NCBI GenBank assembly: GCA_947492995.1
Contig: CANLOU010000004.1
Location: forward strand, 62,001-126,000
Direction of reading: 5' to 3'
DNA length: 64,000 nt
Source: an uncultured Litoreibacter sp.
GTDB taxonomy: Bacteria; Pseudomonadota; Alphaproteobacteria; Rhodobacterales; Rhodobacteraceae
The notes beneath the pieces are model-generated. The model worked only from the letters and a program-made list of their open reading frames with translations. It made no database searches and was not told the origin of the DNA. Positions 19,429 through 22,335 of the stretch are shown here, in pieces; the stretch's first letter is position 1; the number at the start of each line of letters is the position of its first letter. The translations under genes and the position numbers were made by a program.

Positions 19429-19446
19429 TGTCAATTAAACCTTACA
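19429..19446. promoter_or_regulatory. PpsR/CrtJ-type site (TGT-N12-ACA) in the puc promoter
   Basis: TGTCAATTAAACCTTACA fits TGT-N12-ACA exactly. It lies 128 bp upstream of pucB. PpsR (CrtJ) represses photosynthesis genes in oxygen and light in purple bacteria. A weaker second box (TGT at 19470, AGA at 19485) has one mismatch and would give the usual paired arrangement. Confidence 0.7.
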
Positions 19447-19573: not shown

Positions 19574-19732
19574 ATGTCTTCAAATGATCCTGATAAGGTC
19601 TGGCCAACAGGCCTGAACCTTCGCGAAGCTGAAGAGCTTCATAGCTATCTTATCGACGGCACACGTGTCTTCGGCGGGATTGCGCTTCTGGCACATATTC
19701 TCGTGGCGATTTCGACGCCGTGGCTCGGTTAG
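19574..19732 (+). CDS. pucB: Light-harvesting 2 (LH2) beta subunit
   Basis: The 52-residue protein aligns along its length with LH2 beta polypeptides: [20 protein letters not shown], then [18 protein letters not shown] and the end STPWLG. The membrane His of LAHIL ligates the B850-type bacteriochlorophyll, and the His of ELHSYL lies at the cytoplasmic side. It starts with ATG after GGAGGGACGTT. With PucA it builds the peripheral antenna ring in the inner membrane. It is 228 bp from gcvP and has its own promoter region. Confidence 0.96.
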
Positions 19733-19744
19733 GGAGGGTACACA

Positions 19745-20068
19745 ATGAACAATTCAAAGATTTGGCTCGTCGTGAAACCAACCGTTGGTGTTCCGCTGTT
19801 CCTGTCGGCTGTCGCCGTGGGCTCATTCGCGGTGCACGTGGCCGTGCTGTCGAACACCACTTGGGTGTCTGACTTCCTGTCTGGCAACGAGCTTGGCGCA
19901 ATGTCGTCCGCAGCCGTCATCATTGACGACCCGGACACGAACACGGCCAACGCGTCTTTCGTGGCGCCTGAAACGGTCAGTGCGACCGGTTTCCAGGAAG
20001 TTCTGGTCACCATGCCGGACGGCACCCAAAGGCGTGCTGTGCTGCAGCCATCTGGCGAGTCTCTTTAG
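19745..20068 (+). CDS. pucA: LH2 alpha subunit with a long C-terminal extension
   Basis: Residues 1-48 match LH2 alpha chains: KIWLVVKPTVGVPLFLSA, the bacteriochlorophyll ligand His31 in FAVHVAVL, and TTWVSDFLSGN. Positions 44-45, equivalent to the Tyr-Tyr of Rhodobacter sphaeroides, are Phe-Leu. The protein has 107 residues rather than about 54. The extra part runs from about 50 to 107 and ends VTMPDGTQRRAVLQPSGESL. Long C-terminal extensions are known, for example R. sphaeroides Puc2A. The reading frame is intact to a TAG inside a hairpin at 20058-20076. The Phe-Leu pair implies a blue-shifted antenna. Confidence 0.95.
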   Translation: MNNSKIWLVVKPTVGVPLFLSAVAVGSFAVHVAVLSNTTWVSDFLSGNELGAMSSAAVIIDDPDTNTANASFVAPETVSATGFQEVLVTMPDGTQRRAVLQPSGESL

Positions 20069-20076: not shown

Positions 20077-20200
20077 GCCAACAAAATCGCCGATCCCTCA
20101 AGGGGCCGGTTTGTCGGGTGCCGTTCTCTAGCGGCATAGCCAAGGGGACGGCCCCGACGAAACATTCACGGCGGCCCGCTTTTGACGCGTGGGCTGTGCC

Positions 20201-21643
20201 ATGAAGGCGCAGATGATGAACAATTATCGAAAATTTGCCATTGGCAAGCTGGCGCAAATTGGACCCCGCTATCTGCCATTCGCGGATGTGGCGTCAGAAA
20301 ATGTGCCGCTGTCGCGCCTGCTGCGTCTCTCCCTGTTTCAAGTCACGGTCGGTATGGCTTTGGTGCTGCTGGTCGGCACGCTGAACCGCGTGATGATCGT
20401 GGAGCTCGACGTCTCCGCCGCCCTTGTGGGCATCATGATTTCCCTACCGCTGCTGTTCGCGCCGTTCCGCACGCTCATCGGCTTCAAATCCGACACGTTC
20501 GGCTCCGCCTTCGGGTGGCGACGGGTCCCGTTCATCTTCAAAGGCACAATGCTGCAATTCGGCGGCTTCGCGATCATGCCCTTCGCGCTGCTGGTGCTGT
20601 CTGGCTACGGCGAGGCCGTGGACGCGCCGCGCTGGATTGGCCATGCCGCCGCGGGTCTCGCATTCCTGCTGGTCGGCGCGGGCGTGCATATGGTGCAAAC
20701 CGTGGGGCTGGCTTTGGCCACCGACCTGGTCCCCGAAGAGGACCAACCCAACGTCGTCGGTCTGATGTATGTGATGCTGCTCGTCGGCATGATCGTCAGC
20801 GCCTTCATCTTCGGTGCGCTGCTGGAAAACTACACCCCGGGCCGGCTGATCCAATGTATCCAAGGGGCGGCTGTCGTGACCATCGTGCTGAACGCGGTGG
20901 CGATGTGGAAGCAGGAAGGCCGCAACTGGGACCGCGCGCAGGCCCATATCAGGGGCGACGCAAAACCCGAATTCTCAGCCAGCTGGCGCAAGTTCATCGA
21001 AGGGGTGGGGGCCAAGCAGCTGCTGACCGTGATCGCCTTCGGCACGCTTGGCTTCGGCATGGCTGATGTGTTGCTGGAGCCTTACGGCGGCCAAGTGCTG
21101 GGCATGACGGTTGCGCAAACCACCAAGCTGACGGCCGTGCTTGCCGCAGGCAGCCTGATTGGCTTCGCGCTGGCGTCTCGCGTGCTCAGCAAGGGCGGCA
21201 GCCCGGTCAACATGTCCTTTTACGGCGCTGCCATTGGCCTGCCCGCATTCGCGGCCATCATCGCCTCGGCCCAAATGAACGCGCCGATGGTCTTTGTGCT
21301 GGGCACGCTTGGCGCAGGCTTCGGGGCAGGGCTGTTCAGCCACGGCACATTGACCGCGACAATGCGCTCTGCGCCCAAAGAACAAATCGGCCTCAGCCTT
21401 GGCGCATGGGGCGCAGTGCAGGCCACAGCCGCCGGGATCGGCGTCGCCGCAGGCGGCATCATCCGCGACATTATGGTCAGCCTGCCAAGCGCCGCCACAG
21501 CGCCGCCGGAGGCAGCCTACACACCTGTCTTCGTGTTGGAGATTATATTCCTGACAGCCGCCCTGATCGCCATCGTGCCGCTCATGAAAAAATTAACTCG
21601 AACCCGTTCGTCCAAGACCTATGTTCCAATAGAAGAACACTGA
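20201..21643 (+). CDS. pucC: PucC-type light-harvesting complex assembly protein (BCH/MFS family)
   Basis: The 480-residue protein has twelve predicted membrane helices. It carries the PucC-family blocks LSRLLRLSLFQVTVGMALVL, LNRVMIVELDVSAALVGIM and GFKSDTFGSAFGWRRVPFIFKG. The ATG at 20201 is used; GTG 20189 and ATG 20213/20216 are alternatives, the last two preceded by GAAGGCG. PucC is required for LH2 assembly and acts in the inner membrane, probably in bacteriochlorophyll handling. It follows pucBA after about 130 nt with hairpins and should be expressed at a lower level. Confidence 0.93.
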   Translation: MKAQMMNNYRKFAIGKLAQIGPRYLPFADVASENVPLSRLLRLSLFQVTVGMALVLLVGTLNRVMIVELDVSAALVGIMISLPLLFAPFRTLIGFKSDTFGSAFGWRRVPFIFKGTMLQFGGFAIMPFALLVLSGYGEAVDAPRWIGHAAAGLAFLLVGAGVHMVQTVGLALATDLVPEEDQPNVVGLMYVMLLVGMIVSAFIFGALLENYTPGRLIQCIQGAAVVTIVLNAVAMWKQEGRNWDRAQAHIRGDAKPEFSASWRKFIEGVGAKQLLTVIAFGTLGFGMADVLLEPYGGQVLGMTVAQTTKLTAVLAAGSLIGFALASRVLSKGGSPVNMSFYGAAIGLPAFAAIIASAQMNAPMVFVLGTLGAGFGAGLFSHGTLTATMRSAPKEQIGLSLGAWGAVQATAAGIGVAAGGIIRDIMVSLPSAATAPPEAAYTPVFVLEIIFLTAALIAIVPLMKKLTRTRSSKTYVPIEEH

Positions 21644-21699: not shown

Positions 21700-22335
21700 A
21701 TGACCACAGTCATCACACGGCTCTACGCCGACACCAAAACCGCCAACGCGGCGGTCTCTGACCTGAAAAAGGCTGGCTTCACCGGCGACATGGTCGACGT
21801 GGTCAAGCCCGGCCCAAGCGCGCATGAGGCCATGTCCGACGCGCATGTGGGCGACGCGCAAGCCGCCAAATACGCCGAGCACCTGAAAGGCAACACCGCG
21901 CTGGTTGTCGCGCGGGTGCCGTTCATGCCGATGGGGGCCGCGCAACGGGCGATGGAAATCGTCGACGCGCATCCGTCCCTCAAGGTGGGCGTTGCGGACG
22001 AAAACGCCTATGTGCGTCAAAGCATCGACAACAGCCAGTTCCTCAGCGTGCTGACCAGCCACCCGCACATGATCGGCCACGACCTGACCCCCGGCTATAG
22101 CGATCGCTACGGTCTGGTGACGGAAGCCTTCGGCCTCAAGCATCTCAAGCCGCATCGCTCCAAGCGGTCGGCCATCTCCGGTGGTGGCTTCAAGTCCCGC
22201 ATGTTCTGGCCCATGCCGCTCCTGAAGAAGAAGGAGGGGTCCAGCTCCGCCATCTCCGGCGGGGCGCATATGTCCAAACTGTTCTGGCCCATGCCGCTGA
22301 TTTCGCGGTCCGGCGGGCGCGCAAACGTCAGCTGA
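21700..22335 (+). CDS. Unknown puc-operon protein with two SAISGG...FWPMPL repeats
   Basis: The 211-residue protein lies 56 bp downstream of pucC and ahead of a terminator, so it is probably the last puc gene. Residues 1-85 look like a small alpha/beta domain (VITRLYADTKTANAAVSDLKK, then a NTALVVARVPF strand), like stress-protein domains that track a general alpha-beta fold. The C-terminal part carries two 18-residue copies at 157-174 and 183-200, identical at 13 positions: SAISGG, then Ser, then FWPMPL. No signal peptide or clear membrane span is visible. The function is not known. Context suggests a role in LH2 assembly or stability. Confidence 0.8.
   Translation: MTTVITRLYADTKTANAAVSDLKKAGFTGDMVDVVKPGPSAHEAMSDAHVGDAQAAKYAEHLKGNTALVVARVPFMPMGAAQRAMEIVDAHPSLKVGVADENAYVRQSIDNSQFLSVLTSHPHMIGHDLTPGYSDRYGLVTEAFGLKHLKPHRSKRSAISGGGFKSRMFWPMPLLKKKEGSSSAISGGAHMSKLFWPMPLISRSGGRANVS

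Follow-up and report, generated by a model that had tools for sequence, protein, structure and literature searches.

In the LH2 of R. sphaeroides, Tyr44 and Tyr45 are reported to bond the C3-acetyl groups of the B850 pair, and Ser27 the C13-1 keto group of a B850 bacteriochlorophyll (BChl); in the same excerpts, the Tyr44Phe/Tyr45Leu mutant is described as a B800-826 complex (PMC8775250). In the 820-nm complex of Rhodoblastus (Rbl.) acidophilus 7050, Tyr41 supplies one substitute hydrogen bond to alpha-B850, according to passages of two papers (PMC9618040, PMC9897067). PucD-LH2 of Rhodopseudomonas palustris is presented in excerpts of the former as having zero hydrogen bonds to B850 and a single peak at 803 nm (PMC9618040). 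This text gives two residue orders, between which the PucD chain of structure 7ze3 decides, with Val41, Phe44 and Met45. Among aerobic phototrophs, a review passage lists a single antenna peak near 800 nm for Roseicyclus mahoneyensis (806 nm), Roseobacter denitrificans, R. litoralis (806 nm), Rubrimonas cliftonensis and Dinoroseobacter shibae (804 nm), and names F44L45 as a motif common to such single-peak antennas (PMC12654162). The same review gives Roseicyclus elongatum 802 nm with an 850 shoulder (PMC12654162). Two loci of uncultured Roseicyclus (L064 and L068) carry V41-F44-L45, and Roseicyclus is a possible exception to the rule that F44L45 goes with a single peak. Our full-text literature search returned no paper joining R. 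denitrificans LH2 to 806 nm. The terms LH2, 804, 800 nm and puc were all absent from the D. shibae RC-LH1 paper, as were photosynthesis, bacteriochlorophyll, puf and light-harvesting from the Litoreibacter arenae genome paper, and by title no publication was found on spectra of cultured strains carrying the loci compared here.

We analysed a stretch of 64,000 nucleotides (the window) from an uncultured Litoreibacter sp., which carries a pucB-pucA-pucC cluster followed by a fourth gene, all on the + strand. pucB (19574..19732) encodes an LH2 beta subunit of 52 aa (PF00556, 38.8 bits, cut-off 23). With the NCBIfam LH1 beta model it scored 60.2, slightly below the cut-off of 61, and it is called LH2 rather than LH1 because its neighbours are pucA and pucC. 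pucA (19745..20068) encodes an LH2 alpha subunit of 107 aa, and pucC (20201..21643) a PUCC/MFS-family factor for LH2 assembly (PF03209, 486.2 bits, E 1.1e-145 when read from 20189); the ATG at 20201 was kept as its start, the upstream GTG at 20189 being also possible. This cluster lies on contig C4 of a 13-contig assembly (99.14% complete), which we searched for light-harvesting complex (LHC) proteins. Four matches were above the cut-off, namely pucBA in the window and a pair on contig C1, where the reaction-centre genes are also found; the latter pair is taken to be pufBA, since it is followed by two reaction-centre genes. A fifth match reached 12.8 bits, below the cut-off of 23. The search for other PucA paralogues proposed in the earlier note thus returned none above the LHC cut-off, and with a single pucBA a coexisting normal PucA is ruled out for this assembly; its product appears to be the sole peripheral antenna. 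In plasmid records, there were no relatives at E 1e-5.

PucA scored 49.6 bits with the Pfam LHC model PF00556 (cut-off 23), as an LH2 alpha chain with its BChl-ligand histidine should, and 18.8 with the NCBIfam LH1 alpha model (cut-off 35). It matched 16 distinct PDB sequences with E no greater than 1; the names of 13 identify them as B800-8xx chains, three have unspecific names and none is named LH1. By these comparisons PucA is nearer to LH2 than to LH1 chains. Its residues 1-48 align to the R. sphaeroides B800-850 alpha chain 7pbw with zero gaps (phmmer), in agreement with the gapless alignment and the numbering of the earlier note. His31 (codon 19835..19837) and Trp40 are common to both chains, and Leu41, Tyr44 and Tyr45 of 7pbw correspond to Val41 (19865..19867), Phe44 (19874-19876) and Leu45 (19877-19879), so that the hydrogen-bonding Tyr44-Tyr45 pair is replaced over 19874..19879. 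Alignment to solved LH2 chains likewise placed Phe44 and Leu45, and no Tyr or Trp, at the bonding positions. His31, which we take to be the BChl ligand, and Ser27 (19823..19825) are invariant in an alignment of 79 sequences. In this alignment, drawn from a contig scan with six peptide patterns of which one includes Phe44, V41, D43, F44 and L45 are each conserved at 90% or more, which argues that Phe44-Leu45 is more than a chance feature; the 80 loci of the scan are biased toward the Phe44 motif, and the family sample described below, queried with the whole protein, is fairer.

With Phe44, Leu45 and Val41, the alpha chain would offer no side chain known to donate a hydrogen bond to the C3-acetyl groups of B850. 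The B850 absorption would then become bluer until nearly merged with the B800 band, and in the near infrared a single strong peak would be expected at ~800-810 nm, next to an LH1 band at about 870 nm. We consider it quite probable that the window PucA is the alpha chain of such an LH2, of the High-800 or LH4-like kind. A single band at this position is predicted because PucA combines PucD-like residues (41, 44 and a non-bonding 45) with the F44L45 precedent of roseobacters. It shares with the antennas of R. denitrificans, R. litoralis, D. shibae and R. mahoneyensis the F44L45 pair, aerobic-roseobacter kinship and an apparently sole peripheral antenna, as far as the review passage describes them (PMC12654162). 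For the window antenna we infer assembly into LH2, hydrogen-bond pattern and peak position; F44L45 is attributed to R. denitrificans and its kin on the word of the review passage (PMC12654162). PucD-LH2 (7ze3) and the window PucA agree in having Val41 and Phe44 and in the non-bonding character of residue 45. They differ at residues 45 (Met in PucD, Leu in the window) and 27 (Val in PucD, Ser in the window), and PucD is one of several paralogues, belongs to a low-light form and is accompanied by a gamma polypeptide.

The same pair is open to another reading, in which the two lost bonds would move B850 only to ~820-826 nm and two peaks would be kept. Phe44-Leu45 is indeed shared with the B800-820 (LH3) alpha chain of Rbl. 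acidophilus 7050 (1ijd), and the B800-826 mutant made in R. sphaeroides has this pair too, in a chain that likewise lacks Tyr41 (Leu41 in 7pbw). Nevertheless, we regard this reading as unlikely. The substitute donor Tyr41 described for 1ijd in the excerpts cited above is Val41 in the window PucA, and the roseobacters said to have F44L45 show one peak at 804-806 nm in the review passage (PMC12654162). The 1ijd chain differs further by Ala27, its length of 53 residues and its low-light character. The R. sphaeroides chain has the 47-residue core and Ser27 in common with the window PucA, and it differs by Leu41, wild-type Tyr44-Tyr45 and a length of ~50 residues. That its Tyr44Phe/Tyr45Leu mutant is reported to reach only 826 nm counts against a band at 800-810 nm, and for this reason F44 and L45 cannot by themselves dictate 805 nm. 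Val41 is a candidate cause of the shift from 826 to 806 nm, position 41 being Leu in R. sphaeroides; Ser27 cannot be the whole answer, because R. sphaeroides has Ser27 and PucD Val27. The earlier note, which had called the antenna blue-shifted and B800-820-like, was borne out as to the effect of losing these bonds in R. sphaeroides (PMC8775250, in excerpts) and as to the blue shift to be expected when both C3-acetyl donors are lost. The 820-nm label, in contrast, agrees neither with Val41 in place of the Tyr41 of 1ijd, an alignment that the note had itself suggested, nor with the roseobacter precedent. The same pair is reported at 826 nm in the mutant and at 804-806 nm in roseobacters; residue 41 and lineage matter.

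One could also imagine a normal B800-850 antenna in which the acetyl groups are bonded by other donors, from the beta subunit, Asp43 or the C-terminal tail of PucA. The near invariance of Asp43 and the conservation of the tail would be compatible with this, as would the 850 shoulder reported for R. elongatum (PMC12654162). However, the five aerobic phototrophs assigned to the single-peak class in the same review passage peak near 800 nm, and in the literature covered by our non-systematic search, partly as excerpts, no Phe44-Leu45 LH2 had a main 850-nm band. This explanation is the least credible of those considered and has hardly any chance of being right. The preferred reading thus remains a single band at ~800-810 nm.

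Within the genus, LHC matches were found in 12 of 21 genomes, with four matches in 7 of the 12. The puc genes look dispensable in this genus, because LHC matches are lacking in the other nine genomes (of which two have a completeness of only 57% and 79%) and five of the 12 LHC-bearing genomes have two matches only, consistent with pufBA alone. It could be, then, that the LH2 genes of the window are intact and little expressed, and that the cell shows LH1 only. This seems very improbable, as all four genes of the cluster have an open reading frame, the PucA columns are strongly conserved and a TGT-N12-ACA sequence, which we take to be a PpsR/CrtJ site, is present upstream. It lies 145 bases 5′ of pucB (19429..19446, + strand, by pattern match). 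Across the whole window, this pattern occurs 11 times for 8.1 expected, which is not above chance. Among 77 distinct pucB upstream regions of 300 bases each, 73 have at least one site, and the total is 136 for 5.1 expected from mononucleotide shuffles. Paired sites 25-26 bases apart occur in 61 of the 77 regions; the window has a single site. The puc genes may thus be under the control of a PpsR/CrtJ-type repressor.

We examined how widely Val41-Phe44-Leu45 occurs among relatives by querying 394 genomes of the family with the whole PucA protein. Matches were found in 55 genomes, of which 46 have a long-tailed PucA like that of the window. Where the tailed chain could be read from residue 1 (n = 45), 42 were Val41-Phe44-Leu45 and three Tyr41-Tyr44-Leu45; one further tailed chain, read from residue 22, is Val-Phe-Leu, making 43 of 46 genomes in all. 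The remaining nine genomes carry 14 untailed PucA, with Tyr44 in 13 and Phe44-Leu45 in none; one of these untailed chains (L173) is identical to 7pbw across the first 48 residues. All seven puc-bearing genomes of the same genus have Ser27, Phe28, Val41, Phe44 and Leu45. Over all loci, the 104 distinct tailed PucA comprise 93 Val-Phe-Leu, five Phe-Phe-Ala, four Tyr-Tyr-Leu and two Val-Tyr-Leu, and in no chain do residues 44 and 45 both offer a donor (the counts of 104 tailed and 26 other PucA omit the partial chains L164 and L175). In a sample of the class, 11 of 385 genomes besides that of the window had a PucA match and one of them (G507, L134) a tailed Val-Phe-Leu chain; the other PucA are shorter and untailed, with Phe-Phe, Phe-Ile, Phe-Val, Phe-Leu or Tyr-Trp at 44-45. 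Phe44-Leu45 is the near-fixed, usual state of the tailed PucA type, and the idea that it is an unusual variant was rejected on the 79-sequence alignment and on the family and distinct-chain counts.

Some chains depart from this picture. Two of the 46 tailed-PucA genomes have a chain that looks broken. In L161 (genome G207), pucA contains an internal stop and the tail is visible only in a read-through match, and in L164 (genome G296) PucA is in two pieces in different frames; these may reflect gene decay or assembly error. Five distinct PucA of one branch (L063, L065, L069, L075 and L076) read WFEDFA at residues 40-45 (Phe41, Phe44 and Ala45), which would amount to another solution without bonding residues.

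The rarer chains with tyrosines were placed on a FastTree phylogeny of PucB, the PucA core (minus positions 41, 44 and 45) and PucC, with 146 rows. Several PucC rows are fragments, nine loci without a PucC match and two partial chains are omitted, and many forks are weak. On this tree, the Tyr41-Tyr44-Leu45 chains (L158, L160, L052 with its copy L111, and L083) are dispersed over the tailed clade; of the Val41-Tyr44-Leu45 chains, L081 adjoins L083 and L009 lies elsewhere. The residue pair 44-45 changes 15 times on the whole tree. Tyr41-Tyr44-Leu45 thus appears on at least three branches, the tree being silent on the direction of change. L052 is from Thetidibacter halocola KMU-90, whose LH2, if made, is predicted to absorb closest to 850 nm, and L009 is from Tateyamaria pelophila DSM 17270, for which an intermediate position is predicted. 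These chains (L052, 5001-5354; L158; L160; L083, 3471-3785) have a common altered block around residues 37-46, for which L158 with SKTNWYNNYLVG is an example; the block may have arisen by convergent change or by short-tract exchange.

PucA extends ~60 residues past position 47, an extension on which the earlier note was silent; the whole 7pbw chain has 50 residues. The tail (residues 48-107, 19886..20065, + strand) consists, as judged by conservation and AlphaFold, of a flexible linker and a weakly predicted beta-hairpin at 84-100. The model has strands at 84-89 and 95-100 (block pLDDT 67 and 72), a linker mostly below 50 and a well-predicted membrane helix, for a mean pLDDT of 65.7 and a pTM of 0.29. 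Asp92-Gly93 in the tail is invariant in the 79 sequences, and tailed PucA range from 94 to 123 residues (104 chains). From the orientation of the chain, the tail presumably lies in the periplasm. It had no Pfam match up to E 5. Among the mostly open-access papers searched, no title described a roseobacter PucA tail.

The fourth gene of the cluster (21700..22335, + strand) encodes a protein of 211 aa, with a folded N-terminal domain of ~105 residues followed by two FWPMPL repeats 26 residues apart. In the predicted structure, the N-terminal domain is confident (pLDDT >90 over about residues 1-100). The protein matched no Pfam family up to E 5; its only NCBIfam match (E 0.067) fell far short of the cut-off, and a PDB fold search gave nothing at E 0.001 or better (best 0.039). 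When PDB sequences were searched with a profile, three designed TIM barrels came up (best E 0.00091 over 29 positions), which we ascribe to chance. One relative touches Pfam YflT below the cut-off (E 0.0014). In this protein and its relatives, the repeats read, for example, FWPMPLLS or MANFPIPLLSRRKP, with a spacing of mostly 25 or 26 residues. The distinct relatives adjoining pucA (n = 72) reach up to 364 residues, with 14 of at least 340. Extra repeats in L071 (6871-7962), L077 (7016-8062) and L062 (6893-7951) give 349-364 residues, with a period of 25 and also, in L071, of 15.

With the single window protein as query, relatives were found at 73 of the 80 scan loci, mostly right 3′ of pucC. 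Five of the seven loci without a match have ~5 kb of sequence past pucA, and at these the protein is truly absent or diverged. We then built a profile from the genes adjoining pucA and scored at most seven candidates per genome, so that weaker relatives elsewhere may be missed. It matched in 50 of the 394 family genomes: all 46 with a tailed PucA, one of the nine with other PucA (G360) and three of the 339 without PucA (G058, G126 and G356). In 45 of the 46 tailed-PucA genomes, the gene lies within 2.5 kb of pucA on the same contig, the exception being G022. In the class sample, the profile matched in 18 of 384 genomes besides that of the window. These included 8 of the 11 PucA genomes, in which a weaker relative lies less than 1 kb from pucA, and 10 genomes without PucA, at E 5.8e-8 to 4.6e-4. 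This distribution in the two samples links the repeat protein to LH2 outside the Rhodobacter type and not to Phe44-Leu45 itself. Its N-terminal domain probably also occurs in other proteins, and a role in LH2 assembly or ring organisation is our guess.

Taken together, these results indicate that the blue shift of Phe44-Leu45 is not in itself new: the residues are near-fixed in a known antenna type and have been tied in print to ~805 nm, at least in a review passage (PMC12654162). More novel than the residue pair are the conserved PucA tail and the repeat protein 3′ of pucC. We tentatively propose, at somewhat less than even chances, that the hydrogen-bond-free LH2 of this lineage is a distinct design with two accessories. 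One would be the conserved tail, a beta-hairpin in the periplasm that most alpha chains carry, and the other the repeat protein linked to LH2, which would aid ring assembly or arrangement. In this design, bonding residues would have returned in a few species (Tyr41-Tyr44-Leu45, on at least three branches), so that one scaffold would offer a natural tuning series from ~805 back toward 840-850 nm. The repeat protein is a target for work on LH2 assembly. Phe44-Leu45 alone does not mean 820 nm, as residue 41 and lineage count, and since the pair is nearly fixed (93 of the 104 distinct chains), antenna colour should be predictable from sequence for genomes of the tailed type. Nature has in effect varied the number of hydrogen bonds in the rarer Tyr41/Tyr44 chains, which could show how this number sets LH2 colour and bear on why F44-L45 would give 826 nm in the R. 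sphaeroides mutant and ~806 nm in roseobacters.
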